A stretch of DNA of 64,000 nucleotides, taken from NCBI GenBank assembly GCA_030407315.1, contig JALQPE010002026.1:18738-82737 (forward strand). Direction: 5' to 3'. A program made the translations under genes and the position numbers. Positions within the stretch are counted from its first letter, which is position 1. Each line of letters begins with the position of its first letter. This document shows positions 1,705 to 53,921 of the stretch, piece after piece. Source of the DNA: Asparagopsis taxiformis. Lineage: Eukaryota; Rhodophyta; Florideophyceae; Bonnemaisoniales; Bonnemaisoniaceae. A model generated the notes under the pieces. The model ran no database searches. It was not told the origin of the DNA and worked only from the letters and a program-made list of their open reading frames with translations.

Positions 1705-1794
1705 AGCTGGCGTGGAGCCGCACGCGTGTGAGCGGAAACGTGTATTGCAGGCTGAGGAGCCAATGATGAAAAATTAGAAAAAAAATGACTAGTT

Positions 1795-1852
1795 ACTGCA
1801 GTAAAAAGTGATCTAGGAAGATGCATTTGGTAGATCAGTTTTTACTGCAGTA
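1795..1852. repeat. Gene-bracketing palindrome, inner-core form
   Basis: Arms actgcagtaaaaagtgatcta and tagatcagtttttactgcagt enclose a short loop containing atgcat. This is the inner core of the longer palindromes at 6409, 37134, 41646, 42154 and 46781. The outer aaatttggtaattttttt arms are missing or decayed. It lies about 295 bp downstream of the transposase stop. The stretch 1853-2146 shows nothing else. Confidence 0.85.
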
Positions 1853-2146
1853 AAAGAAACCTAATTTTACTTTAATTTTATTGTGGTACGTTCCGCCCTG
1901 AGGATGCTGGTTCATGCTTGAGGCAGTTCAAGGAAAGGATAAGCTCTGGAAGAAGCATGAAAGGTATAGACGAGGAATTAGAGATGGTTACATAGAATAG
2001 AACATAGTGTCTCACAGGTTTTGGACAAGGGACATAAGTATGGCCAATGTCAAGGTGGATGTATGTGACGGAAACGCTACAATATGAGGAAGTTTGTTTA
2101 CGGGAAGTAATATGGTAGAAAAGCTTATGTACTAGACCCTAGAGTA

Positions 2147-6268: not shown

Positions 6269-6408
6269 AGAAACGAAACACACAGATGTAAAGCTGTAGA
6301 AAGGGAGAACATGAATAAGTCGACCGTTACAGTCTAATAGTTTAACTATGACCTTGCTCAGTTGAACATACGACTATACTACCCATAAACAGAAATCATT
6401 CATGGAAC

Positions 6409-6548
6409 GGGAGATGTTGAAATTTGATAATTTTTTTCGCTACGAAATTACTGCAGTAAAAAGTGATCTAGGTTGGTGCACTTTGCTAGATCACTTTTTA
6501 CTGCAGAAATTTCGGAGTGAAAACAATTACCAAATTTCAACATCTCCC
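6409..6548. repeat. Long gene-bracketing palindrome, 140 bp
   Basis: Outer arms gggagatgttgaaattt and aaatttcaacatctccc flank inner arms ctgcagtaaaaagtgatctag and ctagatcactttttactgcag. The loop holds gtgcac. It lies 141 bp upstream of the transposase ATG. The flank catggaacggg just outside also occurs next to the palindrome at 37134. Confidence 0.95.
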
Positions 6549-6569
6549 TGAGCTTCCGGGCGCCGAACT

Positions 6570-22895: not shown

Positions 22896-23009
22896 ATATC
22901 AGCAAAAACCCGGAGGGAAGAAATTACAGCGGATGGTAAATTAAGGGCCCATATCGGACCGTATTTTATTCTCTCATTTACGAAACTGCTCGTATACAAT
23001 ACGTCTCTC

Positions 23010-23150
23010 TAGAATAGGAAATACATATCTGGTCAGAATAGGAAATAAATACCCGGTTAGAATAGGAAATACGTATCAAGCCAGGATACGGAATATGTAT
23101 CCAGCTAGAATATGGAATACGTATCCAGCCAGAATACAAAATACCTGTCA
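23010..23150. repeat. About 27-bp tandem repeats, 6 diverged units
   Basis: Each unit contains agaataggaaatacg or agaatatggaatacg followed by tatccagcc. A tyrosine-rich reading frame across it is repeat-driven and not a gene. Confidence 0.8.
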
Positions 23151-23164
23151 GCATACCGTCGATC

Positions 23165-24960: not shown

Positions 24961-25439
24961 TAACCTGCGGCGTCGACTGGACAGCTTTCAACGTCAGCTT
25001 AAGTCCTGCTGTGCATACTCCATATCATCGCCGGTATTGAGATTAATAATGGCCCAAGCCATGGTCTCTGAACTCCCGAATGATGAGATCCGGATCGAGA
25101 ACATCGGAATGGTATAATCATATATATCACAATCCATTTGCTTCCCTTAAATGATCCCTGTAATATCCACTGTAAAGCACAAACTTATTCCATGAAGTTC
25201 GCAATTAATATAATTTTATTATTTCAAATGAATTAATTGAAAATCCATCTCCCACGGCGGTCATTCATCCTTCCAAGCGCACGTTGCCAGCAAAATGTGT
25301 GACCTAGCGGTGATGATTGATCGCTCAGGCACATTCCACCATTGGGCTGCCAGAAGTGAGCACAAAACTGATACCCACAAAACCACGAGAACATTACAAA
25401 CGAGGTCTCGAACGCACATTTGGAGTACAATATAAATAC

Positions 25440-36389: not shown

Positions 36390-37133
36390 GAACTTGGGCT
36401 TTTCCAACAACCTGCACCTGAATTAGCCCCATATGCAGCGCTTGAGTTCCCTGGGGCGCTCGGGACATCACCTCCTCGGAGGCTGTTATACACGCACGTT
36501 CACTTCCCAACCTTGGAGAGGAAGTTATGCGAGCACATTGAACGCGTTAACATCAAGGTGTATGCTGTACTTTGTACTCAGTGGGCATCATTTATCCTTT
36601 TCTGTAATCATAGTTGTAGGTTTAGTCGTATACGACTCTAATGTGTTATATCGAGAGGGGAAGGTACGTACAGGATAATCTCAATAGGTCATTAGGAGTA
36701 TTATTGTCATAGGACCCATTCCGCGGTATACTACATGTCTATATATAGATGATCTAGGAAGTGAAGTCGACGAGACAAACTACCAGGTAAAATAGACCAA
36801 ACTTCTTTAAAGCTTCACTTCATGTACCCTACGTATGGGATAGCCCCTATTTGGAAAGACTTGGATAGTGCATATTGCATTCCAGCCGCAGCAGGAATTC
36901 AAAAGTCTTACACGTATGTTTAGTGGCTGCTATGTCTAGTCAGAATTCGGAATGGGTCGTTTACCTATGGGAATGTTGTACAAACTAGTGATTTCAAAAT
37001 AATGTTGTGCTCTGTGAAGTGCTGCAACATGACTAACTCTGTTGAAACAGTGATAGCTCAACCGTGCTTACGTGGCCAGGTTCCCTGGTTTGTGCACCTC
37101 TGTCAACGCGGTGTCCATGGAACGGGGGATGTA

Positions 37134-37254
37134 AAAAATTGGTAATTTTTTTCGCTCCGAAATTACTGCAGTAAAAAGTGATCTAGGTTGGTGCACTTTG
37201 CTAGATCGCTTTTTACTGCAGTAATTTCGGAGCGAAAAAAACTACCAAATTTTA
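37134..37254. repeat. Gene-bracketing palindrome, about 120 bp
   Basis: Arms ttggtaatttttttcgctccgaaatt and inverse aatttcggagcgaaaaaaactacc, inner ctgcagtaaaaagtgatctag/ctagatcgctttttactgcag, core gtgcac. The ctccg/cggag change relative to other copies occurs in both arms, while gtgat/atcgc has changed in one arm only. It lies about 225 bp downstream of the dioxygenase gene stop. Confidence 0.95.
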
Positions 37255-37478
37255 GGACCTCAACGCCAGGGGTCCAGCGCCCTTCGCGACTTGCGAAGGC
37301 ACACTGGTTGCAACTAGTATACTACCATTCTTTACCTTGCCATGCACGAGAAGGGGAGAGGGCAGAGGACTATCAAAGGAAGGAGATTCTGACAAACTAC
37401 AAGTAGACTATAGGAATGTGGGAGAACATGGAAACAAGAGAAATATCAGTTTAGAGCATGTTATAGTTAATATGCTAT

Positions 37479-40400
37479 CTATTCAACTGTAATATACTCT
37501 TCGCTGCTACTACTTTCCTCTTCCTTATCACTATCCGACACGTAGTCGTGATCGAAATCGTAGGGCTCCGGCAGAGCATTGGGGTCGTCACTCAGCCCTG
37601 GCGCATGAACTAGGTCGTTGACGAGCTCGGAGGAGACACGCGCAGCCATTGTGTGGACCCGAATATGGTGACCATACGGCATTCCAGTGTTGGAAAGCCT
37701 GGTCTGCACGAAATCGTGGTCCTGCCATCCTGGACCTGCATGTTCCAAGTCTCCACGAGAGACAAAAACAGAGAAGGGAGGTATCCAGACCAACTTGGGA
37801 ACGAGGTGGGGCCAGACGTCCAGGAAGGCCTTGCGTGGGGAGTTGAGGAAGGTATGGCTGCGAGGTCGTACCAGAATCGGGGAACCCACTGCACCAGTTG
37901 CAATGAATGCATAGTCAGGATCTGGTGCAGGTTTACCGTAGTATCGGTTGGGTTCCCCTGGCGGTGGACCGGGGTATGTGAAGTCCAGATGAGGTATCTG
38001 ACGATCACAGCCCGACCCTGTGAGCAGCATCCGAAGACCTGTTCTACCGAACCTGAGCTTGGAGCCTTCCTTGAATCCCTTCAATGACGAAACGGAATCT
38101 TCTAAGTGGAGCTTTTCTGCTATAATAGCGAGCAGAACATCCACAGAGACCTTATCGTGAGCTATTGGACCAGACGCAAGCGTGTCCAGGTCTTCGACAA
38201 CGGCCTTGCAGGGGGTCATGTACCGCTGCCGAGACGGCCCCCCTTCTGCATCCTTACCTCGAGAACCGGAATTCAGAATCGAAATCCACGCACCTTCCTC
38301 GTCTTCCGAGAACTTCTTCGCAAAGGCTGCCAGAAGGTCGTGGATACTAGACCGCACTTCCTTAGCTCCTAGTATGTTCTCCAGGACAACATATCCATCA
38401 GAATCAATACTAGCCCTTGCCCGCTCGAAATACACAGCCCTCTCGATGGACGAAGAACCAGCCATGGAGTCAATATCCTCCCTCAGTTCCTCCACCTCCC
38501 CTTCCGTCAAGTAGAACCCAGAGCGGTGTTCAGGATGAAGTAGGCTCGAAACTGAACGGACGAACGATTCAGCTTCGGCCACGGAAGTATTCTCGAGGAG
38601 GTGGGGAGGTGGACTCGGCTGTTCGTCCTCGTACCGGTGGACCAGAAACCCCTTCGAAGTCACCTTCGATTTCGTGGGGGTTTCTTCCTCCTCCTCACTC
38701 TCACCTTCATTGTCACGCTCCTTCTCACCCGAAGGCGGGGGTTGACCAGGAAGCGGAAGGGAGGGAGGAGGGGAAGAAGTGCTGCCAAGAGCGATGAGCT
38801 GCTCTGCAACGGCAGCACTTCTGGTCTCCGACCGAGTAACCCGGGCCGGAAGCGGACTAAAGGTATCGTCCCTTTTCCTCTTTTCCCCTCGGCGGGTACT
38901 CTTGGAGGGCTTCTTGACCTTGCCCAGAGATATGGGAGTCTTCTCTCCTACGGTGCTCCTCTTGTCCTTGACACCCGCTTCACCCTTGTCCTGTTCCACC
39001 GACTCGGTCTTTGAGCCTCCTTTGCGAAAAGGATTGAACTCATCCCCATCCCACGCTTCTTGTAACGTGACCCCTGCAGGAGGGGTCCAAGAAGAGGCGT
39101 CATTGGGTTGACGACCATCATAGCACCGACGGGAGCAGACGAAGACCATGTCTCGCTCACCTTGATTCAGGTACTTGATGGGGATGAGATGGTGGATGCG
39201 GGGATAGTCGCACAAGTTGTGCACAGGCTTAGAGTTGCACGCTGTGCATTTGTGCACAGCGGCAGAGCCGGGAAAGCGACAGTGCGGTCCAAGAGAGCAA
39301 GGGAAGGGGCGTGGAGTAGTTTCGTCGGCCGGAATGCGAATGGCACGCGAAACGGGATACTCCGCACCACCCCCCAGCGGTTCAGAGACTTCCGCAGTTT
39401 CGGGGTTCTGCTGTTCCCCCTTAGGAGTGGGGGGAACTGGAGCAGGGGAGGGTAGTGACACAGCCATAGGAGACTTGGGGGGAGAAGATGGAGCCCGGGC
39501 AGCGGAGGGTGTTGAGACAGCCATGGGAGACTGAGCAGGAGAGGGATGAGGAGAAGGGGTGGTGGGATTGGGAGGAGAGGGGGAGGGATGAGGAGAAGGG
39601 GTGGTGGGATTGGCAGGAGGGGTGGTAGGATTGGCAGGAGGGGTGGTAGGATTGGCAGGAGGGGTGGTGGGTTTGGCAGGAGGGGTGGTGGGATTGCCTG
39701 AGGACCCGGGAGCATTCTGCTGCGTTTGTTCAGGTGGAACAGCAGCAGAAATGTCCAAGGGACCAGTTTCATCCTCTGGGAGGGGCTCAGAGGGAAGGGG
39801 GACAGGGAGAGGCTCGATGATAGTTTCTCCGAACTGTGTCGGAGAACGATCCTTGCCAGGCACTTGCGATGGTGATCCTGGCGGAGGGACAGGTGCAGGA
39901 GGAGCACTCGTTGAAGCCCTCGCACCCTCCTCCATTACCACGTCATTGGCGGGAGTGGTATTCGCAGCAGAGTCCAACGGCTCAGTACGAGGAGGAGTCT
40001 GTTGCTTCGGTGCAACATTGAAACGATGCTGGATGACCGAACGGAAATCTTCGATACGAAGATCTTGGTTCTCCGTTCTCTTCGGCACCGGCTCCTCCTC
40101 GTACTGAACCATACGCTTGAACACGGATTTCCAGGTCGGGATCATTTCCTTTCCATCCGGTTCAAGGTCTTCCAGGTCTGCCAATTGCTCCGTACTGAGG
40201 TCAACCATGGGTGCTAGTTCACGGATGACCTCGTAGAAATCTCTAACGTAATTGAGATATGTACGGAGCTGGAGACCTGGGATACGTCCAAACGAATGCA
40301 TCAGCAGCACAGACCGGTAGTGAAGGCATTTGACCATCAATTCACTAGCACGGTCTTCAGCCTTCGTGAATGCTGTGTCTTTTAGGACCAGAAGGCTGAT

Positions 40401-41129
40401 GCCGACCTCGTTCTCCTTCCTCCCGGAAGCCATCTTGTAGGCTGCGTACGTGCGAGGCGAACGTCGCATATTCATAGCTACATTGACGATGGACGTCACG
40501 GTACTCTTCCGGAGGATGCCAGAAAAATGACGTTGGAAGAACCAATTAGACAGCTGCGAAGCCGTCATGTTGGCCAGATTCCTATCCCCAGGTTGAGCGT
40601 ACTTGAGGTTGCAATTGTATATGCTAATGATAGCATGTATACGATCCCGGATGGTGGTTGGCAAAACAGTGTGAACAAGCTCATTCAACCGCTGACTGAG
40701 GTAAAGGACATCCTCCATAGTCATTGGCGCACCATCCGGCCTCAAGGCTTCCTGGACAGGAACGTTGTCCACAACGGAAGCTAAACGCTCAACCTGTTCC
40801 TCCTTCGCCCGCACCAGAGCTCCACGACGATGAAGACCGTCCGCTATGTAGTAGCGTGTTCCATCGGGCCCAAATGGTAGATTTACCACAGTCATGGAGC
40901 CCACAGAAGAGGTCTGAAAGCCTTCGAGAACCATCTTCTGGAACAGCACTTCAACATGAGAGACATCAACCTCGCGGGATGTTTCTTCCGTGACATGAAT
41001 GTCAGCGATCGGAAGTTTCGTTTCCCTGAACAGGTAGTTCGAAAGCGAGGTGCCAGTGCGGGACATGGCAGGGATGGTGAGCTCTCGAGCTGCACTGGTG
41101 GTCGACAGAGGGATAGTACGCGGAGGCAT
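37479..41129 (-). CDS. ParB-like / Zn-cluster / 2OG-Fe(II) dioxygenase fusion, 1216 aa
   Basis: Residues about 38-115 look like a ParB/Srx-type domain: LPIADIHV at its start and YYIADGLHRRGAL at the ParB box. Residues about 430-560 are a Pro/Thr linker with PTTPPAN repeats. Residues 611-668 hold a Cys/His cluster (CSLGPHC, CTACNSKPVHNLC, VFVCSRRC) that probably binds zinc. The C-terminal 300 residues look like a double-stranded beta-helix dioxygenase: DGYVVLENIL near the start, iron ligands H1047-x-D1049 (PHLDFTYPG) and H1130 (SRGDLEHAG), and Arg1144 or Arg1157 for 2-oxoglutarate. Such enzymes oxidise methyl groups on bases, proteins or small molecules; substrate unknown. ATG at 41127-41129. 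A TET/JBP-like role is inference only. Confidence 0.62.
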   Translation of the reverse strand: MPPRTIPLSTTSAARELTIPAMSRTGTSLSNYLFRETKLPIADIHVTEETSREVDVSHVEVLFQKMVLEGFQTSSVGSMTVVNLPFGPDGTRYYIADGLHRRGALVRAKEEQVERLASVVDNVPVQEALRPDGAPMTMEDVLYLSQRLNELVHTVLPTTIRDRIHAIISIYNCNLKYAQPGDRNLANMTASQLSNWFFQRHFSGILRKSTVTSIVNVAMNMRRSPRTYAAYKMASGRKENEVGISLLVLKDTAFTKAEDRASELMVKCLHYRSVLLMHSFGRIPGLQLRTYLNYVRDFYEVIRELAPMVDLSTEQLADLEDLEPDGKEMIPTWKSVFKRMVQYEEEPVPKRTENQDLRIEDFRSVIQHRFNVAPKQQTPPRTEPLDSAANTTPANDVVMEEGARASTSAPPAPVPPPGSPSQVPGKDRSPTQFGETIIEPLPVPLPSEPLPEDETGPLDISAAVPPEQTQQNAPGSSGNPTTPPAKPTTPPANPTTPPANPTTPPANPTTPSPHPSPSPPNPTTPSPHPSPAQSPMAVSTPSAARAPSSPPKSPMAVSLPSPAPVPPTPKGEQQNPETAEVSEPLGGGAEYPVSRAIRIPADETTPRPFPCSLGPHCRFPGSAAVHKCTACNSKPVHNLCDYPRIHHLIPIKYLNQGERDMVFVCSRRCYDGRQPNDASSWTPPAGVTLQEAWDGDEFNPFRKGGSKTESVEQDKGEAGVKDKRSTVGEKTPISLGKVKKPSKSTRRGEKRKRDDTFSPLPARVTRSETRSAAVAEQLIALGSTSSPPPSLPLPGQPPPSGEKERDNEGESEEEEETPTKSKVTSKGFLVHRYEDEQPSPPPHLLENTSVAEAESFVRSVSSLLHPEHRSGFYLTEGEVEELREDIDSMAGSSSIERAVYFERARASIDSDGYVVLENILGAKEVRSSIHDLLAAFAKKFSEDEEGAWISILNSGSRGKDAEGGPSRQRYMTPCKAVVEDLDTLASGPIAHDKVSVDVLLAIIAEKLHLEDSVSSLKGFKEGSKLRFGRTGLRMLLTGSGCDRQIPHLDFTYPGPPPGEPNRYYGKPAPDPDYAFIATGAVGSPILVRPRSHTFLNSPRKAFLDVWPHLVPKLVWIPPFSVFVSRGDLEHAGPGWQDHDFVQTRLSNTGMPYGHHIRVHTMAARVSSELVNDLVHAPGLSDDPNALPEPYDFDHDYVSDSDKEEESSSSEEYITVE

Positions 41130-41645
41130 GTTGTTTTTGCCGAGTGGGTAGCGCGGAAGTGTAGTGAGAAAGAGAGGGGGATAGGAGAATAGAGATGGTT
41201 GAGGAGAGATAGACTGCCAGTCTACAGTGTCGCTTTAGAGAGACAGTGGGAGGGAGAGTGTGGTGGATAGTGCCAGAGAGATTGGCAATGAAGTGGTAGA
41301 GAGGATCCCTGAAAGGTTGGCAGAGAGAGGTAGGTAGAGGTGGAGAGATTGGTGTAGGGAGTGAAAGAGAGAAAGAGAGAGAGAGAGAGAGCGGAACAGT
41401 GCGTCTCGTAGGGGGAAGTCCTCGATCGGGATTGCTTTTCAGGTGCAGAAGAAGCAGAGAGAGTAGCAGATGAGTAGGAGCCGAGAAAGAAGAAGTGGAT
41501 GGTCGTGTAAGGTATGCACTTGAAGGTTGTCCAAACCGGACCGTGGGACAGCGCAATATAACAACTAATGCGCATAATATCCGCCGGTTGCGTCCTAATC
41601 AATCAGAACTCATATTGAACGGTCATGGAGAGAATGGAGGATGGG

Positions 41646-41775
41646 CATTAAATTTGGTAATTTTTTTCGCTCTGAAATTACTGCAGTAAAAAGTGATCTA
41701 GCTTTGTGCACTTAGGTAGATCACTTTTTACTGCAGTAATTTCAGAGCGAAAAAAATTTCCAAATTTTAAGCGCA
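41646..41775. repeat. Gene-bracketing palindrome, 130 bp
   Basis: Arms gcattaaatttggtaattttttt... and its inverse ending caaattttaagcgc, inner arms cgctctgaaatt/aatttcagagcg and ctgcagtaaaaagtgatcta/tagatcactttttactgcag. It lies about 515 bp upstream of the dioxygenase ATG. The 41130-41645 stretch has a GA-rich tract (41365-41390) and no gene. Confidence 0.96.
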
Positions 41776-41784
41776 TCTTGAGCT

Positions 41785-42152
41785 GACCCGTGGCGCCTTT
41801 TCGGCGACTGCTCTAGCCTGCACTAAACGCGACCGTTGCTTCGATGATTTTATTGAGCAAAACAGAATGGCTTACGTTTACTTTCTACAATAAACGGTCT
41901 TTGACGCAGCTTGACTGTGTCTATCAAGTTGTATGCGTCACTGCCAATGTGCCCATTTCAGCTGGCTCAGAGTAATTCATCGAGTACGGACACGAAATAC
42001 TGTTCTGTGTAACCAGCACCCTGTCAGGAGAAATGTTGAGAAGTAAATGTTTTCCCATCTTCCTTTACACCCTGTTCATAGAATTCAAATAAGTGTATGC
42101 GAGACAGGATGTAAATCCTTGCACAGGTCCCCTAAACGACGTAAAATACGAG
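41785..42152. repeat. Chimeric inverted duplicate of 42587-43040
   Basis: 41785-41917 matches the complement of about 42587-42735 (shared ttacgtttactttctacaa, aaacggtctttgacgcagc). 41918-42152 matches the complement of about 42795-43040, including the last codons of the SET gene (tcgagtacggacacgaa). The two source blocks lie on either side of the short palindrome 42746-42790. Here they are fused directly and enclosed by two long palindromes. It carries a non-functional tail of the SET gene on the plus strand. Confidence 0.85.
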
Positions 42153-42153
42153 C

Positions 42154-42276
42154 GTAAAATTTGGTAATTTTTTTGGCTGTGAAATTACTGCAGTAAAAAG
42201 CGATCTAGCTTGTGCACTTGGGTAGATCGCTTTTTACTGCAGTAATTTCACAGCCAAAAAAATTACCAAATTTTAC
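42154..42276. repeat. Gene-bracketing palindrome with compensatory changes
   Basis: Arms gtaaaatttggtaatttttttggctgtgaaatt and inverse. It differs from the other copies at ggctgtg/cacagcc and at aaaaagcgatctag/gatcgcttttt, each changed in both arms so that pairing is kept. Confidence 0.96.
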
Positions 42277-42745
42277 AGTCTAGCTTGTGGCGCCTGTGGC
42301 ACTTGCCTTGCACATCTCCCCTCATACCGCGGACCAATACCCTCTGTTTCGGGCATCTCAACCATCGGAACGGAAGCCAGCGAGCAATGCAATGTAGTTG
42401 TTCCTCTACTTTTCCATCGCTATATTCACCCGGATGTACATGAACTAATCTAAATGCACCGTATGGTAATGCACGAAGCATGACCACGAATACATGTTCT
42501 GGTCTGTCCCTTCCTTAGTGGAGCTACTTGCGCTTGCGAGCAAACAATCGTGACACCCACAAGGTGTGGTACAGAACCATCATACACAGTCGAGCTGCGT
42601 CAAAGACCGTTTATTGTAGAAAGTAAACGTAAGCCATACCATTTTGCTTAATGACATCATTGAAGCAACGGTCGTGTTGAGTGCAGACTAGAGCTCAGAC
42701 TAGAGCAGTGGCCGAAAAGGCACCACAGGCGCCACAAGCTATACT
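42277..42745. other. Non-coding segment between two palindromes
   Basis: No gene seen. Its right 150 bp (42587-42735) has an inverted partner at 41785-41917. Near both of its ends, gcttgtggcgcctgtgg-like sequence occurs in opposite orientations (about 42284 and 42722). Confidence 0.6.
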
Positions 42746-42790
42746 GTAAAATTTGGTAATTTTTTTGGCTCTGAAATTACCAAATTTTAC
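42746..42790. repeat. Short (45-bp) palindrome, deletion form
   Basis: gtaaaatttggtaattttttt and gaaattaccaaattttac, without the inner ctgcag core. The junction ctgaaattac|caaatttt is what a deletion between the two direct aaattac copies of a long palindrome would leave. Confidence 0.93.
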
Positions 42791-42936
42791 GCTCGTATTT
42801 TACGTCGTTTAGGGGACCTGTGCAAGGATTTCCCTCCTGGCTCACATACACGTACTTGAACTACAATTCTATGAACAGAGTTTAAAGGAAGATGGGAAAA
42901 ATTTACTTCTCAACATTTCTCCAGACAGGGTACTGG

Positions 42937-44193
42937 TTATACGGAAAAGTATTCGTGTCCGTACTCGATGAATAACTCTGAGCCAGCTGAAATGGGCACA
43001 TTGGCAGTGACGCATACAACTTGATAGGTTGATACAGAGGTCTCATCAAGAACTTCTTGTATGGGGGAAGAGAAACTAACATTAGCAGAACGCGACGGAC
43101 GCTCAGTTCCCTCCGCTGGGTCCACAAACGTTGGGTCGTTGATTTTCGATGCCGCACAATACTCGAATGGAACAATGAAGATTGGACTTGCAGACGTGGA
43201 TGGCATCAGACATTTCACATTTGCATCCTTAATTTGAACAGCGTACTTCTGGAAACGCTCAATCGAGAAGGAAGTAGGTCCAGTACCGAAAGTCTTCAAC
43301 TTCGCCTTGTACAAATCCTTGTAAACCACAGACCCGAAATAGTACCCTACGATATCTCCAGGATCAATATCCACTCTTGCAAACAGACCGTCACCAGCCG
43401 AAGGAATCGTTGACGCTGCGACGTATACATTGTGTGCCATCGCGTCTATTGACAGCAGGGTTTTAATATCCACGGTAGACAACAAACCCAGCAGCGATTG
43501 TGGCCACTTATCAATGGGTTGGTCTGTCAACTCCTTGTGCTGGTCCGGAATGCACCAGATGCCAGTAAGAAAGCTGATGAGGTGGGGCGGAAGTTTGGTT
43601 GAAATGGGCACTTTTGAGGTTGTCTTCAATGATGAACTCTCTTCCGAAGTTCCCAGACGAGCAGAAGCCAGCTGCTGTAGGGCAGTCGTGGACTGCTGGG
43701 CAAAGTTCCCAATAGAGACCTGGTGGAGAAATGCGACGTTGACTCTAGGAAGAGACAGTTCGTAGCAATCCTTGAACTTCTCACACCCGACAAACCTCCT
43801 GTACTGACCATGGTGCATTGTCAGGCATGCAACAGCAGTGGAGAAAGTTCCAGCAAACATGTCAACAACCAGGTCGCCCTGGTTTGAGAAACGCCCAATG
43901 AGCTCTTGCATGAGAGCGACGGTCTTCTGCTCGGGGCGCAACGTAACCTTCTTCTTGTCCTTGTCCATATATTTCACCGTCTCCGACGCAGTGATCCGCG
44001 GGATGTTGTCGATGACATTTGTCCAAGCCTTGAATCTAGAAGGTATGTATCCGGCATTTCGGTAATTAACCATCCCCCAGCCTTCTCTCCCCTTGCCGAG
44101 CTTGGTGGCATGTACGACCAACTCCACCATATTCAACAAACTTGTCGTGATACGATACGGGGGGATGTGAAATGTGTCGGACTCCGAGTACAC
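42937..44193 (-). pseudogene. DNA methyltransferase C-terminal half fused to SET domain
   Basis: Continuation of the methyltransferase at 44133-46421 in the -1 frame. That frame is open from 44210, there is no upstream ATG, and the nominal start is GTG. First part: VTLRPEQKTVALMQELI (the KP-Q/EQKT motif) and VVDMFAGTFSTAVAC, the SAM-binding FxGxG motif with a Phe in place of the last Gly. The last 165 residues are SET-like: ASTIPSAGDGLFARV, YYFGSVVY, a divergent PFEYCAASKINDP...SANVSF centre, and GSELFIEYGHEYF at the end. SET domains methylate lysines in histones or other proteins. The stop lies 147 bp from the short palindrome. Confidence 0.68.
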
Positions 44194-46421
44194 ACAATAG
44201 GCTGCGAATCAACGGCAAACATAGGATAGCCGGCAGAGTACTTCACTTTGCGGAGCTCGTAAACCCAATTGTAGAACAGAGCAGCAGATGTGAATATGAG
44301 AACATGACCACCCTTGCGCGTCACCTTGGAAATTTCAGCTACCGTGTCTTCGATTTCTTCCTGACGGAGGACATCGTAACCAGAGTTTCCTCTGCCGGAC
44401 ATACGCCTAGTATTGTACGGCGGGTCAGTGAGGACCAACTGAGCACCTTCCCGGATTTGCGGCTTACCAGGATTGTCAACGGCGTCGTAGTTTTTCAGAA
44501 GGTCTCGGAAACTACAGTTGAATGTATGTAGGAAACATCCTTTCATGTCCTCCAGTTCCGCAGGAATTAACACTTCCTCTTCGACCCGCATGGAGTTCAC
44601 ATCAGCTTCGTTTGGACCGGTGCTGCTGCTAGCCGGGTTAGCCCCTGAGCTTGCTGCACCGATCGTACTGACCTCTAGACGCCTACGCTTATTCGGGTTC
44701 GCGGCCACGGCTTCCGACACCTGTCGGGTTACCGAAGATTCCCGCACTGGAGAAGCTGTCGTCTCCATTTCTCTGAACAGCTCCTCATTTGGGTCGGGCG
44801 TTGATTGCGGCTCTTCTGTGAGGCTGAACGCTGTGAGCTGCCTTTCCACCATCGCCAGTGCCGGAATAGTCGTGAACCTCCCGGAAACCGGGGAACCGGG
44901 GGACGGCTGGAAGCTCTGTATGAACGGTATATCTTGCGGAGCCGAGACAGATAGGTCGAACAATTTGTCATTGCGACATATTGCCATTAAGTGTTCCCAG
45001 AATGACTTTGCACAGAGGCGCATCTGAGCGTCTTGCAGCAGCGTACGATGGACAGCAGCACTTGAAATGCTTGCCGAGTGTTGCACTCTTCGAACAGCTC
45101 CTCTGCCATGCAACAAGGTCTTCAGCTCTCGAAGCGGTGAAAAGCCCCTATTTTCCGAGTCCAGGACGTGGTACGTAAACAGTCTCTGGTCGTAAAGAAG
45201 GTAAGGTTGTAGGAGCTCTTCTGCACCGCCTGACCCCAAGGATTTTGCCAACTCATCCCATGCTGCCAGAACCTGATGAACCCCATATCCCAGACGCTGT
45301 GCCGTAAAAGGACTGTCCTTTTTGATTAGCGCTGTCAATCTAGCCGCAGACCTGGTTCTTGTCCGTTGTCGTGGGCGCGTTTCTACTCGCAACTTCCAGT
45401 CTCGATCCATCTGAATCAATCCCATGAGAAATACAACTTTCCGGAAAGACGGGGAATATCTTGGAGTTGCCCAGTTACCATGATCTGTAGCCCTTTCCTG
45501 AACGTGTGAAACAAAGAATTGACAAGCCAGAGTTTGCCTGGAGTACGCATCTCGTCCAATAGCTGTCCTTTCCTGTGTGTTATGGTTTTGGTATTCATAG
45601 AACACTGGACCTGAGGGACGAGGACTCTGGGAGGTTTTCGTTGAAATTTCTACACCCCTTGGCTCATCACGCTCATTGATGTACACCGGAATAAAGAACG
45701 ATACCGACAAATCCTGCATCCCACAGCTGGTAAGAAACAGATCCCATACTCTAGTATCAAGCTCTGTATTGCCATCATCACCAGTACTCGTGAAGTTCCG
45801 CACTGATTGCACAATGTTAAACGTGTGGCGGTGGTACGCATATGAAAACCACCTGTCAACGATTACGATGGCTTCTAGAGATGGTAGATTGAATCTGTAC
45901 AGACTGCCCACAGCCCTTCGGAACGCTGAGAGTGAACGTTCTTCGAGTGGAACGTTATCTTCGTCCTTCTCTCTATTATGCCAGCAGTCCCGCATGTAAG
46001 CTACAATTGACACACTTTCGTAGAACGGAATTGTCCTTTCGCTCTCCAGAATGTGATACAGAATCAAGGCAAGCGTATGCGGTTTCGTGGAAATAGACTC
46101 ATAGCACATGCGGAGTAAATACCTTGAAGTCTTGGTTCGGGGGCGTGACAATACCTCTTCGCACACGTCCATACCTCCAACCAGGGTAACGTCCCCGTTT
46201 TCCGCTATGGTACCGTACAGATAGAGAGCATCGAAGTTTAGGTGCGTTCCGCGGGGAATATCAGAGGCAGGAGTGGCAGCCCCTTCAATCGCTGGAATTG
46301 AAACAACGCGCGCCGGATCCACCCAGAGAATTGTTCCGTCTCCGTACAAATCATGCGGTTCTGTTGGTCCATTTTCGCTGCGTGTTACGACGAGCCCATG
46401 TCGCCGTCGTACTTCCGCCAT
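44133..46421 (-). pseudogene. DPPY-type DNA methyltransferase N-terminal part, frameshifted
   Basis: 762 aa from ATG 46421 (MAEVRRRHG). An unassigned region of about 640 residues comes first. Then comes LVLTDPPYNTRRM, the catalytic motif IV of amino (N6-adenine or N4-cytosine) DNA methyltransferases (D666), and RKGGHVLIFTSAALFYNWV, the following strand and helix. DPPY before FxGxG gives the beta-class order. The frame ends at 44133, but the rest of the enzyme continues in another frame from the overlap 44135-44210. One base seems missing, most simply in the G6 run at 44159-44164. The hit target (DNA or RNA, adenine or cytosine) is not known. Confidence 0.72.
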
Positions 46422-46780
46422 TACTTGTGAGGTGAAGAGAAAAGGGAGAGCAGGGAGAATGGAAAAAGATGAGTGGGGAAAGTTTTCGACGATCAAAGGG
46501 CGGACTGGAAGTCCACGCCCTCCAAAGTCCACGCGGCGCCAATAAATTCGAAATCGGAAATTCTGGAACCGACACGCCGCCGATATCTCGCGAGGGGACG
46601 TGAGGATGGCGACAGAAGCCAGAGTTGTATTGCAGGGATTAGAGTAGGGGTTTGTACTAGTTTGGAAGGGGTGCGTAAGTCGCTTGCACTCTGTGCCAGT
46701 AAACTAACTTCAACGAGCGCGAATGGCAAGGAGATAGTAGAGAAATAATAGTAGCAAGACTCGTTCTCGATTCACAATTG

Positions 46781-46898
46781 AAATTTGGTAATTTTTTTCG
46801 CTCTGAAATTACTGCAGTAAAAAGTGATCTAGCAAAGTGCACTTGGCTAGATCACTTTTTGCTGCAGTAATTTCAGAATGAAAAATTTCCAAATTTAA
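46781..46898. repeat. Gene-bracketing palindrome, 118 bp
   Basis: Arms aaatttggtaatttttttcgctctgaaatt and a slightly decayed inverse, with ctgcagtaaaaagtgatctag/ctagatcactttttgctgcag inside and gtgcac at the core. It lies 360 bp upstream of the methyltransferase ATG. 46899-47438 shows no gene. Confidence 0.95.
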
Positions 46899-47438
46899 AG
46901 CACCGCTCTAATCGTTCATGCTTTATTCCAGAACTAACCAACTGAAACGTCTGACTAGTTTATGGAACGATAATCATCAGATTCTTCTTTTACGAATAAA
47001 TCTTGCTGGGAATTCCTAGTTTTGGATATCGATCGTTAAACTAGTCTAGACTTTTAACTAACTTCGCGGACGTCCTACGATACATTCCAGCGCATGATGA
47101 TGGCGTCGTACTGCTGTTCAGCATGCTGACAAGTGCACTAGTGTGTAAAATTGCGCAATGTTATACATGTGTGCTGCAGAGTAAGGGGGCTATCACTTGC
47201 TCTGCTTATTGCACTCTGCGCATATTGGAATGCACAGAGCAAAAAAGTTAGCTTTGCTGTCGTTAACATTGCGGGGCACCAATGTGCTCTGCTACGTACA
47301 AATTCCCGGTCGTGTATTACCAAAGTATACGGCCGAAAAGCTCACCGAGTTTCCCAGTGCCGCACCTTCACAGTCTCTGAGCAGAATAAGCGGTGGTAAA
47401 ATACTACGTCATGTATTGTTGGCCGTCATGGTTTGTAC

Positions 47439-47486
47439 AGTTGAAATTTGGTAATTTTTACGGCCTGAAATTACCAAATTTCAACT
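47439..47486. repeat. Short (48-bp) palindrome, deletion form
   Basis: agttgaaatttggtaattttt, then cggcctgaaattaccaaatttcaact. It lacks the ctgcag core and has the same ctgaaattac|caaattt junction as the short form at 42746. It lies 228 bp upstream of the next gene. Confidence 0.93.
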
Positions 47487-47713
47487 CGAGCCTACATTGC
47501 TGGTTTCACTGCTTCTCAGTATGCCGAGGACCGTTACAGCCCTCATATTTCGTAACGGCACTACCATTGCACTTGTCCGTTACATGATTGGTCTGCTTAC
47601 GACAGACATTTCCCTCGAGTCTTTCTATTTATCTTTCCGTTGGATAATCAATTTGCTCGTGCACCTCAATTCTCCTCTCCCGGACGTGGAACATCCCATC
47701 ATTTTGAGCTGAA

Positions 47714-49396
47714 ATGCGAGATGAATTATCATTGTCAAGGTTTGCAAAGTTTGAGGAACAGTTTGCATCCCTCGAACAGTATATGCGCGACTCCCTTTCG
47801 TCCATTGAAATGGAGCTTGCTTGCATTCGGTACATGACCTCGGCTGCTGCAGGGACAAACACTGTACCTTCAGTAGTTCTCGAGGAGAGATCAAGAAGAT
47901 CAGGTCAAATTACCACTCTAGTGTCCTCTTTGTTCAACAATAGGCATGTGACATCTAGATTCGTCGCTTTCCGAACCGTTGCAGAGCTTACCAAAACTTC
48001 AGTGGATCCCAGTTTGTTCAGGAACTTGAATGCAAGGTCTGACGAAACCGCGCAAGTGAAGTCCTGTACAACATTGCTACTTGCTGCATTGTCGTTTTCG
48101 CAGACTTCCAGTTCTAATGCAGAGGTAAGACAATCCAAGAAATCTCTAATTGGCACTGCGGTTGGGAAACGGCATATATTCTTAAAACGCTCTATTGTCG
48201 GAACAGCATTTATTTCGATGGCGAATGACAGAATTGTACGATGGAAGGACTCGGCCACCAGGAATGCCGGCATCCTGGACCCCGGCGAAGAAGAGGACTT
48301 GAACAGCAATACTATCTCGAGAGATTATGCACTACGGAATGCAACAATTGTGCCCATCGATAAACCATCTTGGCTGCACATTTCGCAGCGCGCTCTTTTG
48401 CATGCTATGGATATTTCGATGCCCACGGAGGCGGAACGCAACATAGAACAGACCACGAGTTTGCAGGTTGGATCTTCGAAGCGTCGGCGACTGTCTGGTT
48501 CAAAAGGAGAAGCACGCCGTGCATCTACGTCCTCCTCTTCGTCTTCCGCTATGCCCAACCTGTCACCGTCTGATATACAATCCATTCCGATCATTACCTC
48601 TGCTCTACGGCAGCTCACCCAGTTCTTCAACAGTTCCCGTAAGCAAATGAAAATGGAATTGGTCAAGCAAGCATTCTTCCTCATCCACCGAGATATGAAG
48701 GCAAATATTGCTGTTCCACTCGACTCTGATGTGTCAACGTCGGACATGTGTCCACTTGACTCAATTCCGACAACTTTGAAAGCTTACGGAACAGGAGAAG
48801 ACGCTCTAGAAGTGTATTCAAGAAATGATTCTACCTTCTCAAATTTCATTCTCAGTCGTCCCGAGCTTCACGTCCAGGTTACTTACAAAGTTCAGGTAAG
48901 CGGCGGTATCGTTAATGGAAACATTACAACTGCGCAGAATCCAGTGGAGAAATTGGCTGTATGTTCATTCTCTTTTCTTACTTTAGCTATGATATTGTTA
49001 TGCAGTTTCTGCCAATGCACACAACTGGAGATGCTTTGTCATGAGCCCCATGCCATTCAAGCTTGTTATCGGATAGCAATATGTCTCCAAGGTTTATTCA
49101 ATGCGGCCCTCAGCAAGATACCTACACCTCAATTCGGGAAAGATGGATTCCCTTTGCGAGTTGCATGGGGGCATCTAGAGCTGCGGGACTACCTTATGGG
49201 AGGTGATTGCCTGTTCGGAATCATCAGAAAGAAGAGAAATCTCACTGCTGAAGAATATGAGTCTGTACGTTTCGATTCAAGCATCGTACAAACCGAACTT
49301 TCCTTTGAAAACACGGCAGACAGGCGCGTTTCCAATCCTGATTGCGTCCCTCTACAGGAGGATGACGAGCTTGGTATTTCTCTAATTGATGTGTAG
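47714..49396 (+). CDS. Unknown 560-aa protein of the giant element
   Basis: Not recognised. The only gene of the element on the plus strand. ATG 47714 opens MRDELSLSRFAKFEEQ, with a likely amphipathic helix or coiled coil over about the first 45 residues. The middle (about 245-285) is Ser/Arg-rich with a possible nuclear signal (SSKRRRLSGSKG). The C-terminal region (about 430-520) looks globular (CYRIAICLQGLFNAAL, RVAWGHLELRDYLMGGD). It converges with the 562-aa gene, with 137 bp between stops. Length, intact frame and position suggest a real accessory gene, perhaps DNA-binding or regulatory, but that is a guess. Confidence 0.6.
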   Translation: MRDELSLSRFAKFEEQFASLEQYMRDSLSSIEMELACIRYMTSAAAGTNTVPSVVLEERSRRSGQITTLVSSLFNNRHVTSRFVAFRTVAELTKTSVDPSLFRNLNARSDETAQVKSCTTLLLAALSFSQTSSSNAEVRQSKKSLIGTAVGKRHIFLKRSIVGTAFISMANDRIVRWKDSATRNAGILDPGEEEDLNSNTISRDYALRNATIVPIDKPSWLHISQRALLHAMDISMPTEAERNIEQTTSLQVGSSKRRRLSGSKGEARRASTSSSSSSAMPNLSPSDIQSIPIITSALRQLTQFFNSSRKQMKMELVKQAFFLIHRDMKANIAVPLDSDVSTSDMCPLDSIPTTLKAYGTGEDALEVYSRNDSTFSNFILSRPELHVQVTYKVQVSGGIVNGNITTAQNPVEKLAVCSFSFLTLAMILLCSFCQCTQLEMLCHEPHAIQACYRIAICLQGLFNAALSKIPTPQFGKDGFPLRVAWGHLELRDYLMGGDCLFGIIRKKRNLTAEEYESVRFDSSIVQTELSFENTADRRVSNPDCVPLQEDDELGISLIDV

Positions 49397-49533
49397 TACT
49401 GCTTTGATTAGAAACTTTATATCGGTATGGTTCATTAGTAGTTCTAGGAAAAGTCCCAACGCTCAACTAGTTCTGCTTTGCAATGCATGCATCATCTGCA
49501 TTAAAGTATTTCTGATTCATCCAACTGCTGGCA

Positions 49534-51222
49534 TCATTTAATGTACTCCTCTGCCTTTTTCTCTGACGCACTATACCCTACCACGTCGTTCACTACATCT
49601 TCTGTTATCAACTTGTCTATACGACAAGGTTCTTCCACACCACGGAATACGACGTACGGCATATGAACTCTCAGAGATCCCCACAGTACATCCCCCGCCT
49701 TTCCTCGCTTTCTTTGCATCGCAGGCTCCCATTCTATACGGAAACATTTCTTTCCTTCGCTTTTCCACCCTTCCAGACTCCCTTCACCGTCGCTCCTCCC
49801 GTGCACATCACATGTCAAAGGACATTTCTGCAGCTCCATTCCGTGCACGTATTCACCTTGGACCACAGCACTACTTTTTCGAATTAGACACCACACGTTT
49901 GATGTTGTTTCCGCACTGCAGAATGAGCTACTGCCAATTGCAACAGATGTCGACTGTGCTTCCATCATTCCCGAGCACAATATCGTACCAAACAACCGCA
50001 AACCACATGACCTCGCCGAACCGTTCATGTAACTACACTCTTCATTGTCCTCCACTTCCGAGTTGCTGATGTTACGCCTTTGAACCAGACACTCGGTTCG
50101 CCATCGGTGCCCTAATCCTAGCAGATCTGATAGTGTTGCAAAACTGGAACACGTAATGTTCAAAGCTTCCCCACCAGTTCCAGCTACTGCCGCGTGAAGC
50201 CCTGGGTACACTTTGTAATACCCCCCTCCATAGATTTCTGCTGTTCCCTTTAGCATTTCCCGGAATAACTCAGTGCTCAATGAGATGGGAATCTGCACCG
50301 GTCCGCTAATAGCCGTTCCACTTGTACAGGCACCGTCAATCTCACTATGTGGGTAGCCGCCACCTGAGTTTGACAAAGTGCTTCGATTAACCTGTTCCAC
50401 AACTTTCTCTACCGCACGCTGTAAGAGCATCAATAAAACCTTACCAGCTGATACTGTTGATCCACAATTTCGAACCATTCCGCTCCAACCAAGCCGACAC
50501 TCGCTACCATTTCCAGAAAGCATTATATTTTCTAGTGTTCTCAGCCTTGTCTCCATACTACCGTATGTGTTGGCGTCAAGTGCTGATTCCACTTTTTGCT
50601 TCTTCCTATGCGGTGATATCGCTTCAGATTCTCCATCTGATTGTTCATGAAATTCTACTCCCACCGCTTCGTAGTCCACAACCTCTCTGTTGCTCCTTCG
50701 CCACTGTGTCGGTGGCTGACCCCCGGACATTAACTTACTTCCCATCAGAAATTTTACATGTTCGTAGGAAACACAAGGGTAATTCCTTTCAGGGATAGCA
50801 TCATATAACAATCTGCCTTCCGCAACCACCATTTCATCGTGCCTTGGCTTCACAGCATCCGAGTACCGCCACTTTGATACTTCCATCACTGCAATATCCT
50901 TTTCCTCCGTCGTCAACCTCACAATTGCATCACCCACATCCTGTCCATTGTGCTCCACCACACCAGGCGTGTACACGCCATCTCCTCTGTCTACATCGAT
51001 GCGGTCTCCCACTGACGGCTTATCACTGCAGACAGGATACTGCTCAGGAAGTTTGATTTCCACAACAGTAGCCTTCCACCATATTGCGTCATCACCCACT
51101 TGGAACCATACGTCTATTTGCGAGCCGACACAGGGAAGTGCATCTACGGCCGCTGCTCGCTCACGGCCAGCTTTCGCTTTTTCGCTCTGTCGCCTAATTC
51201 GCAATGATTCACGCCTAGTCAT
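49534..51222 (-). CDS. 562-aa protein, possible Tudor/Agenet-like N-terminus
   Basis: ATG at 51220-51222. A basic first 25 residues (MTRRESLRIRRQ) is followed by two motifs that read like small SH3-type barrels: GSQIDVWFQVGDDAIWWKAT (about 32-51) and SVGDRIDVDRGDGVYTPGVV (about 70-89). Such folds in Tudor/Agenet proteins read methylated residues. A nuclear-signal-like HRKKQK lies near 205. The remaining region is rich in Cys, Gly and Ser and is unassigned. The domain call is a pattern impression; a profile search would decide. In context, a reader module next to methyl writers and an oxidase would make sense. Confidence 0.5.
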   Translation of the reverse strand: MTRRESLRIRRQSEKAKAGRERAAAVDALPCVGSQIDVWFQVGDDAIWWKATVVEIKLPEQYPVCSDKPSVGDRIDVDRGDGVYTPGVVEHNGQDVGDAIVRLTTEEKDIAVMEVSKWRYSDAVKPRHDEMVVAEGRLLYDAIPERNYPCVSYEHVKFLMGSKLMSGGQPPTQWRRSNREVVDYEAVGVEFHEQSDGESEAISPHRKKQKVESALDANTYGSMETRLRTLENIMLSGNGSECRLGWSGMVRNCGSTVSAGKVLLMLLQRAVEKVVEQVNRSTLSNSGGGYPHSEIDGACTSGTAISGPVQIPISLSTELFREMLKGTAEIYGGGYYKVYPGLHAAVAGTGGEALNITCSSFATLSDLLGLGHRWRTECLVQRRNISNSEVEDNEECSYMNGSARSCGLRLFGTILCSGMMEAQSTSVAIGSSSFCSAETTSNVWCLIRKSSAVVQGEYVHGMELQKCPLTCDVHGRSDGEGSLEGWKSEGKKCFRIEWEPAMQRKRGKAGDVLWGSLRVHMPYVVFRGVEEPCRIDKLITEDVVNDVVGYSASEKKAEEYIK

Positions 51223-52219
51223 AGTTGCTCCACAAAATAAAGATACTACAACGCACTATCTGCAATTTTGTTTAGGACAAGTCTTCGTCGACTTCTTCAC
51301 TAGATACTACTTCACCCATGTCTGTAACGTCCAATTTTTTCATTTTTATAGTATGATACGAAATCACTACCTTGTTCCCTACTGCCATACAAGTTGTCAA
51401 ACACTCTACTACTGCGTTCAAGATACTAGTCACGCTTAAAGCCAGGCCGGAACTCACTATTCAGGTCAATCTTGTGTATGCAGGAGTGACTTTATTACAA
51501 AATTTAGCGACTTCGACAGTAACTATGCCGTAGTATCTGTGCTAAAAATCAACATAGATGGTGCCATTCTTTACTAAGTAATACTACAGAAACTAAACTC
51601 AAGTACAATTATCTACTCTTTCGACCGTACCCTACCTATGGTACAACAATGGCCATATCGAGATTAGCTAGTTAACGTCATACACTCTGCATTTCGCCTC
51701 TTCCATATGATATATTATTCCTCATGGACGCCCAAAACGTGACGCTATCGAAGGGTATGGCGCGTTGGAACAGTCAGTACCAGTCCATCACTCTAGCCTC
51801 ACTACACTGCTACGAATGCCATCTGTACTACAGACCGGCGTAACCATCCAAGTTCATGGTTCGAGTCCAACATGGTACTGTCACACATATGGTTCCCTCG
51901 TTTCGTCATTCCAGCATGGAAATTATAAAAATCGTGGAATATGCCACCTCCGGTCACTGTCATGACCAACGCGACGTGTCCTTGTCCTTTCCAATGTTAT
52001 TTTTCCGTACAGTACTGGAAAATTCCACCATGTCACGGTGCTTATACCCACTCCCACGGCGCAGTTTCATTCCACTATATTCTTTACGGTATTTCCACTA
52101 CTTATCTATGGCACGGCGCCGGTAATATCTGGGATTTTTTGATGGTTTGTCATTCCACTAATTTCTAATGGTCCAGACCATGAAATTTGCTGTTTTTTCA
52201 AAAAATTGCTTATCCTGTG
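51223..52219. repeat. Right subterminal region of giant element
   Basis: No gene. Short motifs echo the left end of the window in inverted form, such as acagtactgg (about 52012) and gtcacggtg (about 52034), plus many attcca words. The last 20 bp, inward, read CACAGGATAAGC and a small palindrome gcaattttttgaaaaaacagc. The abrupt switch to gypsy pol sequence at 52220 marks the terminus or a break. Confidence 0.55.
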
Positions 52220-53921
52220 TATCGTATGTAGAGCCGGACCCTGACGATAGGGCATTGAACGTATGGGCCGCGTGCCCGGTTCGAGTTCGATTCGATGCTC
52301 CGTAGCATTGATTTCGCCGAGGCGTCCGCTCGTCCACATTGACGAATGTGTGGCTAGCATCTTGTTGATGCGCTTTCGTAGATCCTCGTCATCGAGGTGC
52401 GACAAATCGATTGTCGACTGCCAATCCGTGGCGGGGTCGTTCCCCTTTTCGTTGACCACCGGGTCTAGCGTTTCGTTGCCCAACCCATTCGTATTTATCC
52501 GCGTCGTCGCGTCGACTAGCGGTAGGTTCAAAACCTTCGCGAGGGCTTCGCCGCCCTCACGCTTGAGTGGGACGATTCCCAACGGGGAGCGTACTGCGTA
52601 CGCAATCGTCGCGCCCTTCGGCAATTCGCGGTCCTTCTTCGTGAAGTTCGACACGATGATAGAGAACGTCTCTCTCGGTCCTACGTCGACCACTCCGTTG
52701 GCTATGCGTAGCCCATGCCGGAATTGCACCGACGCTTTCGGTTCGAGGAACACGAGTCCGGTCGCGTCCGTCGTCACGTTGACGGTCCGTTGCGACATCG
52801 CCGGTACACGCGTGTACTTCGTCAGGCGAACCGAGAACGTTCGGCTCGGCCGATTCGCGGCCGCGTTACGCTCGCGGCGTTTCGGGTGTTCCACGTTTGG
52901 ATTCGTCTCTTCACCCTCCTCGCACGGGGTCGTCGTATCACCCTCTGCGATAATGGGTATCGTATCTCCCCGATGGAGTTCGATTGTCTGCGCTCGACCG
53001 CGTATAGCATCGACATGCTTCGACATGAATGACGTGCCCATTATGACGGGAACAGCCAGCGTGTTGGCTACGAAGAATTTTACGCGGAACAGCGAGTTCC
53101 CCAACCTGACGCGAAGCAGGATGGCGCCTTCGATAGGCAGACGTCGCCCGTTGGCGTCTCCGAGCTTCGGTAGCTCTTCGTCACGTAGACAGCGGTCAAC
53201 CCAGTCGTTGGGTAGTAAACTTGTTCGTATCAAGTTGTAGCCGCTGCACGTATCCATCGCGATGGTAATCGCCCTCATCACGTTGAGGTCTAGTCCTATC
53301 GTTCCGGACACGATATAATGCTTCGACGCACGTAGGCACGTATGCCCGTCGAGGACCGACGGTTCGGTCCTGACCGGCGCGCGGTCTCCGTCTTCGCTAG
53401 CGATTCGTCGCTTCACCGTATGAGCCCGTATGGCTTCTTTTGCGTCGACACGCTTCGTATAAGCCGCGTGCTTGGCTTTCTCGCGCTCGGAAGCGTCGTG
53501 CTTCCGGGTAGCGCGTCTCGCTCGTCTGCGAGACTTACTCTTCGTGTGAGGTTCGTTCGTCCCGTCGGACTTCGTTTCTTCCCCCACGTCAGGTGTCGTG
53601 TGACTCGAGTTGGCCTTCGCGGCCGTGAGCTTTTCGTAACTCTCGTTCATCGGTGAGCCTGCGGAGGACCAATCATCGACGTCGGTCGTCCCCCTTTTAC
53701 GTAAGGGTTCAGGCGATGTGGGTGGCTCGTGACCTACATCGCCTGGTCGTTTTCCGGCGCGAGGCCGTTCGACACGTCGTCGTCGTGAGCCCACGAGGCT
53801 CGTTCGTCATCGTGACTCGTTTCCACCTCGAGGGGTGTTTCGTCAGCGGAAGTCGTCACGTAGACTCCGCTGCGGCCATTACGCTGGCCATTTCGTTCGT
53901 TCGCCCACGGGCGGGGATCAC
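52220..53921 (-). mobile_element. Gypsy-2 fragment: second copy of gypsy-1 family
   Basis: The complement matches gypsy-1 from about 15125 (cccgcccgtgggcgaac) to about 16820 (ggctctac.tacgata). It is bounded by the giant element on the left and by the gypsy-3 LTR on the right. Both missing halves should lie outside the window if the two elements inserted into an intact copy. Differences from gypsy-1 are scattered substitutions. Confidence 0.95.
52220..53921 (-). pseudogene. Gypsy-2 gag tail and Pol N-terminus (protease to RT start)
   Basis: The gag tail ends at stop 53734-53736. Pol is open from there to the junction, holding the protease (AMDTCSGYNLI, VIMGTSFM) and the start of RT, then reads on into the giant element (tail ending 52106). 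At the gag-pol slippery site the sequence is GGAAAAC (complement of 53749-53755) in place of the canonical GGGAAAC of gypsy-1, so frameshifting is expected to be weaker. Confidence 0.92.

Follow-up and report, generated by a model that had tools for sequence, protein, structure and literature searches.

A giant DNA transposon, likely EnSpm/CACTA-related, with DNA methylase-SET and ParB/oxygenase-like genes in a probably red algal genome

The subject of this report is a giant mobile element, roughly 23 kb overall, that lies in a stretch of 64,000 nucleotides (the window: bases 18738-82737 of contig C1900, itself 82,737 bases long, in an assembly of 141.5 Mb and 3,156 contigs) and runs from C1900:18446, 292 bases upstream of the window, to window position 52219. 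We consider it probable that this element is an autonomous and recently active cut-and-paste DNA transposon, related to EnSpm/CACTA, whose enzymes keep its copies expressible or distinct from host chromatin. An earlier note on this DNA had placed a transposase, a ParB/oxygenase fusion, a DNA methylase-SET fusion, and two further proteins in a single mobile element, a proposal now borne out by common boundaries, many copies, and a constant gene order.

The element and its interruption are laid out in the window as follows (all coordinates without a contig name are those of the window).

1 to 6569: left part of the element within the window; the true left end, with the terminal inverted repeat CACAGGATAAGCAA, is 292 bases upstream at C1900:18446
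6570 to 36389: copia-type nest, a later insertion not owned by the element, with the 5-bp duplication GAACT
36390 to 52219: right part of the element, delimited by alignments of other loci
52206 to 52219, minus strand: right terminal inverted repeat of 14 bp, a perfect match to the left end
52220 to 52221: 2-bp target duplication TA, with its second copy at contig positions 18444-18445

That the copia nest splits one larger element, as had been supposed, is confirmed by the exact duplication of GAACT at 6565-6569 and 36390-36394, on either side of the nest, and by contig C1824 (locus L034), where the same element lacks the nest and the DNA is continuous through the insertion site. At the right end, the alignments of loci L037 and L038, from two other subfamilies, terminate exactly at 52219, and unrelated sequence follows. 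A terminal repeat had been proposed at 52199-52219; its end was exact, but the repeat is 14 bp long and not 21. The left counterpart, which was expected upstream of the window, is present at C1900:18446 with 14 of 14 bases identical in inverted orientation. The element was inserted into a gypsy element, and when an uninterrupted gypsy site is used for comparison, both junctions map to a single point of an intact copy in the same window, which is 97-98% identical (about 14.5-20.5 kb compared).

Genome-wide searches with a left-end pattern of 34 nt and a right-end pattern of 27 nt, each allowing up to 3 mismatches, found 189 left and 166 right ends, and the reversed patterns used as controls found none. 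Among the first 100 listed matches per end, 21 left-right pairs could be formed: 13 span 20-23 kb and eight span 32-53 kb, the latter being nested insertions or wrong pairings, and a listed methylase-SET match lies inside 16 of the 21. Without nested insertions the element measures about 21-22.7 kb; the copy on C1847 has 22,691 bp, which differs by 5 bp from the 22,686 bp of the window element once the nest and one duplicate are removed. Flanks were read for 19 copies, namely 17 newly fetched from the 21 pairs, the C348 copy, and the window copy, the remaining two of the 21 pairs starting at a contig end or no more than 2 bases from one. Duplications of 2 bp flank 11 of the 19 copies, where about 1.2 would be expected by chance; their sequences vary, and none is longer. 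A TA-specific target was considered and rejected, TA accounting for two of the 11. Membership of the genes in one element is based on ends, target duplications, and other copies; palindromes alone were rejected as its basis.

The copies fall into three subfamilies. A protein search with the SET-containing half of the methylase-SET gene scored 99 of 3,083 candidates, all at least 75% identical: subfamily A at 93-100% (43 genes), B at 85-87% (34), and C at 75% (22). Because 24 of 30 fetched A loci are more than 99% identical to the window copy, itself one of the 30 (best alignments of 2.2-4.3 kb), the burst that produced them is recent. From left to right, A, B, and C share the order non-coding left region, transposase, ParB/oxygenase, methylase-SET, ORF5, ORF6 (the two further open reading frames, ORFs), and right end. 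The entire element was read on C348 (subfamily C) and has five genes in the order of the window; subfamily B has the same five in the same order, its left half having been read from C2078 and its right half from C215; and the stretch read of C1824 (subfamily A) holds a transposase fragment, ParB/oxygenase, methylase-SET, and a partial ORF5, again in window order. Other copies with the same gene order, which the earlier note had proposed to seek, therefore occur in all three subfamilies. All five genes have a ratio of nonsynonymous to synonymous substitution rates (dN/dS) below 1 in the subfamily comparisons, which indicates purifying selection; no A-C ratio is given for ParB/oxygenase and methylase-SET, whose synonymous sites are saturated between A and C. 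It should be added that in each of two contigs (C86:15041-15649 and C730:15619-16227) a pair of left ends stands head to head, with the same spacing of 575 bases, which suggests a duplicated locus or a rearranged element.

The genes of the window copy and their predicted domains are listed below.

2147 to 6373, minus strand: transposase ORF, 1408 amino acids, EnSpm/TNP2-like from termini and motifs
37479 to 41234, minus strand: ParB, Cys/His-rich, and oxygenase-like protein, 1251 amino acids
40758 to 41018, minus strand: ParB-like domain (phrog_1033, E 5.2e-5 in the subfamily C ortholog P0010 and 0.065 in the window protein P0002)
39123 to 39299, minus strand: conserved Cys/His cluster, zinc-finger-like, recognised by eye
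37635 to 38447, minus strand: putative 2-oxoglutarate/Fe(II) oxygenase domain
42937 to 46703, minus strand: DNA methylase-SET gene, in two overlapping frames (44133-46703 and 42937-44208)
43759 to 44441, minus strand: N6/N4 DNA methylase domain (PF01555, E 7.2e-14 in the unbroken copy), with motif DPPY and then FAGTF
42958 to 43395, minus strand: SET domain (PF00856, E 9e-6 in the window copy)
47708 to 49396, plus strand: ORF5, 562 amino acids, dN/dS 0.125 (A-C)
49534 to 51255, minus strand: ORF6, 573 amino acids, dN/dS 0.265 (A-C)

The transposase ORF, which by eye we take to be TNP2-like, has dN/dS values of 0.18 (A-C), 0.17 (B-C), and 0.45 (A-B). Its protein search returned three matches, all from ENA, at 98, 75, and 60% identity, and a PDB search with it returned no match. 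Both ends of the element are of the CAC...GTG type and perfect over 14 bp, with a CACAGC variant in, for example, the C348 copy. The CMCT clade is characterised, in PMC12730594, by 5'-CA..TG-3' termini (CAC..GTG in EnSpm) with inverted repeats, by target duplications of 2-5 bp, and by transposases with a C(2)C motif between the second D and the last E and with an H(3-4)H motif. In the four transposase rows covering the region, one invariant C..C follows the conserved D residues (the catalytic D and E roles were assigned by eye) and corresponds to C(2)C. From the ends, the duplication size, and the C(2)C motif, the element likely belongs to this EnSpm/CACTA-related clade.

We regard the methylase and SET assignments, which come from profile matches, as firm. 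The PF01555 alignment covers positions 2-217 of 221, phrog_67 matches with E 1.3e-24, and TDPPYN (motif IV) precedes FAGTFST (motif I), both invariant in alignment A2, which is the order of beta-type N6/N4 methylases. In a second Pfam scan the SET profile reached E 3.6e-5, and its curated cut-off of 22.4 bits was passed by P0003, P0015, P0016, and P0011; among solved structures, the adenine methylase DpnA and SETD7 come nearest in sequence, over short stretches. The ratio dN/dS is 0.17 (A-B) and 0.11 (B-C). The fusion that the earlier note described exists as one frame of 1255 amino acids in C1824, but in the window copy it is split into two overlapping frames. The unbroken form is matched over a 22-base stretch at 11 places in the genome, and the methylase-SET genes read in B and C are single frames.

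The ParB/oxygenase protein is assigned with less certainty. Support for its ParB-like domain is moderate: a DGLHRR sequence, a box of the DGxHR type, is conserved there in addition to the phrog_1033 match, and a Pfam scan of the ParB/oxygenase proteins gave no ParB match. The putative oxygenase is assigned at motif level only, from the HxD, distal H, and R residues, which are unchanged in all four aligned sequences, including one at 33% identity. The oxygenase region matched no Pfam oxygenase family, and hence no TET/JBP profile; its best PDB match by sequence is ectoine hydroxylase, a weak one (E 0.06 over 25 residues). The low-confidence oxygenase model has a predicted local distance difference test (pLDDT) score of 34.6, and the 50 fold matches listed for it have E values of at least 1.1, none of them significant; several of these are 2-oxoglutarate oxygenases, which we do not count as evidence. 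The A-B dN/dS of the gene is 0.20. Beside the C215 copy (L037:4091-10000) is a second element lineage with a transposase fragment (23% identity), an oxygenase-like frame (31%), and a ParB-like frame recognised by eye; because this distant lineage holds both relatives, the pairing of the transposase with ParB/oxygenase looks old. A decayed relative of the oxygenase, 27% identical, also lies upstream of the window copy on C1900 (L001:7724-9213).

ORF5 and ORF6 gave nothing above the curated cut-offs in the Pfam and PHROGs profile scans. Beside the left end, the subterminal region (window 1-763; C1900:18634-19500) contains 45-bp tandem repeats and an open, apparently non-coding frame, and is a candidate transposase-binding region. 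The frame, ORF0 (270-288 amino acids), was rejected as a gene and treated as non-coding, since its dN/dS between subfamilies is 0.6-1.1 despite the good conservation of the region.

The earlier note had palindromes surrounding every gene. They are found at four of the six boundaries in subfamily A, but are absent between ORF5 and ORF6, none was found between ORF6 and the right end, and they are fewer in B and C.

1785 to 1853: palindrome that separates the transposase from the left non-coding region
6409 to 6548: near-palindrome of about 120 bp at the 5' end of the transposase
37134 to 37259: near-palindrome 3' of the ParB/oxygenase gene
41640 to 41777: near-palindrome 5' of the ParB/oxygenase gene
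42154 to 42276: near-palindrome with perfect arms of 54 bp
46779 to 46900: near-palindrome 5' of the methylase-SET gene
47441 to 47488: short palindrome preceding ORF5
41810 to 43027: inverted duplication of the methylase-SET 3' end and the downstream region

Most of the near-palindromes are about 120 bp long. Subfamily C has them at two boundaries, and subfamily B has one pair between methylase-SET and ORF5 (L036), with only short ones in its left 16 kb. The sequence of the arms differs between A and C and is self-complementary in each; a pattern made from the arms matched 1,773 places in the genome and none in controls. Relative to A, ParB/oxygenase is inverted in B and methylase-SET in both B and C, each keeping its place in the order. 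With strands called from the same first 100 listed end matches, methylase-SET runs opposite to the element in all 23 resolved copies of A and along it in all 18 resolved copies each of B and C (40 of the 99 could not be resolved), so that no ongoing flipping within a subfamily was seen in 59 resolved copies. The inverted duplicate beside methylase-SET in A is likely the scar of an inversion. Between A and B, identity is 92.7% over the left end and most of the transposase, 75-77% in ParB/oxygenase, 80-85% in methylase-SET, and 84.8% from ORF5 to the right end, and synonymous divergence is 0.17 for the transposase, 0.83 for methylase-SET, and 0.95 for ParB/oxygenase. Between A and C, 90.9% identity extends across the first 2,145 bp and stops at the first palindrome, the next match being at 71.4%. 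We infer from this mosaic that the palindromes may be recombination boundaries between gene cassettes.

How might such an element work? The transposase would mobilise the element after recognising its 14-bp ends and the conserved subterminal region on the left. The methylase-SET fusion would mark element DNA together with a lysine on a nearby protein, either a histone or a transposition protein, while the ParB/oxygenase protein would bind element DNA and oxidatively change a mark. Jointly the two proteins would keep the copies expressible or set them apart from host chromatin, and in this way the element may control its own silencing. The near-palindromes between genes would serve as cassette boundaries, where genes are exchanged or inverted among lineages. 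The earlier proposal that the element brings its own writer, eraser, and perhaps reader holds for the writer, in the form of the methylase and SET domains; the eraser is represented by the conserved HxD...H...R residues only, and the reader is unproven. A more elaborate version, in which the ParB-family protein loads on the inter-gene palindromes (as ParB does on parS) and spreads, the oxygenase strips host silencing marks, the methylase-SET protein writes DNA and histone marks together, and the palindromes permit cassettes to be swapped or flipped as part of one self-contained chromatin system, is speculative, and we think it rather unlikely.

Several observations weigh against our reading of the element. 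A matching 2-bp duplication is missing in eight of the 19 flank-read copies, and co-occurrence with element ends was counted genome-wide for methylase-SET, one of the five genes. Neither the window transposase ORF, nor P0014, nor five members of A6 matched a Pfam transposase family; the four covering transposase rows have no invariant HxxxH or HxxxxH, as the H(3-4)H motif of CMCT transposases would require; and AlphaFold gave poor models, with mean pLDDT of 35.1 and 34.6. The class assignment and the oxygenase fold therefore rest on motifs and termini. Finally, each of the 30 A loci that were fetched, the window copy included, has a broken methylase-SET frame, a share biased by the query, which itself had the break and to which these loci were the top matches. 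It follows that the element does not depend on an intact enzyme in cis. A different account is that the broken frame is read as one protein by frameshifting, or that its halves form a split enzyme, and here one can point to a break common to 30 of 30 loci, 24 of them more than 99% identical to the window copy, and to the ENA metagenome protein P0023, which ends alike. Given the query bias, the 11 places that keep the frame, and the single frames read in B and C, we hold this account to be improbable, and help in trans would explain the spread of the broken form equally well.

The methylase and ParB domains are prokaryote-like, and the accessory enzymes might accordingly act on the host, placing marks on the DNA or chromatin of its genes or of rival elements, as defence or addiction-like cargo, with no part in the silencing of the element; we judge this unlikely, since in three subfamilies the genes have stayed within the element and purifying selection acts on them, and since relatives of the transposase and of ParB/oxygenase also occur together in the distant second lineage. 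The transposase had earlier been called KDZ-like, and its great length together with oxygenase-like cargo does recall the KDZ elements of fungi as presented in PMC12730594 and PMC12477816. That assignment was not upheld: no ORF matched a KDZ profile in Pfam, the CAC...GTG ends and the C(2)C motif agree with an EnSpm/CACTA-related position, and the target duplications are of 2 bp, against the 7-8 bp reported for KDZ members (PMC12730594). A genome-wide KDZ search had no matches, but its controls also had none, so that it is uninformative; in sum, a KDZ transposon with oxygenase cargo seems very improbable. An integrated virus or virus-derived element, such as a large DNA virus or a Polinton-like element, could account for several genes, a prokaryote-like methylase, and intronless frames. 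It is nevertheless extremely unlikely, as the ends and duplications are of transposon type and the Pfam and PHROGs scans of the element proteins met no viral hallmark family. In IMG/VR, ParB/oxygenase had no relatives among 131 pattern matches and methylase-SET had two distant methylase relatives among 46, a weak test with two short peptide patterns for each protein.

The transposon that we favour is not wholly new in type, as giant multi-gene transposons have already been reported from red algae. Those of the Bostrychia moritziana genome, described by Petroll et al., are reportedly Plavaka-type. According to PMC12477816, which cites them, Petroll et al. 2025 reported giant EnSpm elements with accessory genes from this red algal genome, and they resemble our element in being EnSpm-related and in having several such genes; the same source states that proteins similar to ParB-methylase occur in red algal transposons. 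It also describes Sola1-1_Ec32 of the brown alga Ectocarpus, a DNA transposon of 21.5 kb that encodes both an N4/N6 DNA methylase and a ParB-like domain. In that Sola-1 element the two are joined in one protein of 1104 amino acids, whereas here ParB is linked to an oxygenase-like domain and the methylase to SET in an EnSpm-like element. The fungal EnSpm, Plavaka, ESTA, and KDZ transposons that carry TET/JBP genes (PMC12730594) likewise bring a 2-oxoglutarate oxygenase on a DNA transposon, in EnSpm with CAC...GTG ends; compared with what is given there, the oxygenase of our element is not recognisably TET/JBP and is ParB-linked, a methylase and SET are added, and the 2-bp duplications are varied. 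SET protein methyltransferases are borne by HarbingerS and by Phytophthora MuDR elements (cited in PMC12730594), which belong to other superfamilies and for which the available text mentions no DNA methylase fusion. DNA methylases are borne by the DNMT retrotransposons of dinoflagellates and charophytes and, as Dam-like adenine methylases, by DIRS elements (PMC5890265). Purifying selection is reported for the charophyte DNMT element, as found here, but these are retrotransposons with other methylase classes or another context, and "SET domain" does not appear in the text of that paper.

In literature searches judged from titles and the start of abstracts, we did not find described the combination of a methylase-SET fusion, a ParB/oxygenase gene apart from it, and genes that are flipped and bounded by palindromes. 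Transposons with single epigenetic enzymes are already known; an active family in which a methylase-SET writer occurs together with a ParB-linked oxygenase, and whose genes are modular and flipped, would allow a direct test of whether mobile DNA sets its own chromatin state, and would do so in a lineage whose silencing is poorly understood. The three multi-copy subfamilies, with a large group whose writer gene is broken, offer a natural experiment.

As to the host, a red alga is probable: of the 37 relatives found with the methylase-SET protein, the two with organism names come from Chondrus crispus and Pyropia yezoensis. The Chondrus relative has both the methylase and SET domains, and in the Pyropia relative the methylase domain was the only one detected. 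The single match of the ParB/oxygenase search, P0008 (JGI), is 99.8% identical to the subfamily C protein, which points to the same or a very near species. Since P0023 (ENA) is moreover the broken methylase form, the host or a very close relative appears to occur in public metagenomes.

Two minor features of the window remain to be recorded. At 52106-53806 a gypsy ORF enters the end of the element and matches a dUTPase profile weakly (E 0.0055, not reaching the cut-off), and within the copia nest the stretch 23001-25000 forms a block of strong GC skew (about -0.46).

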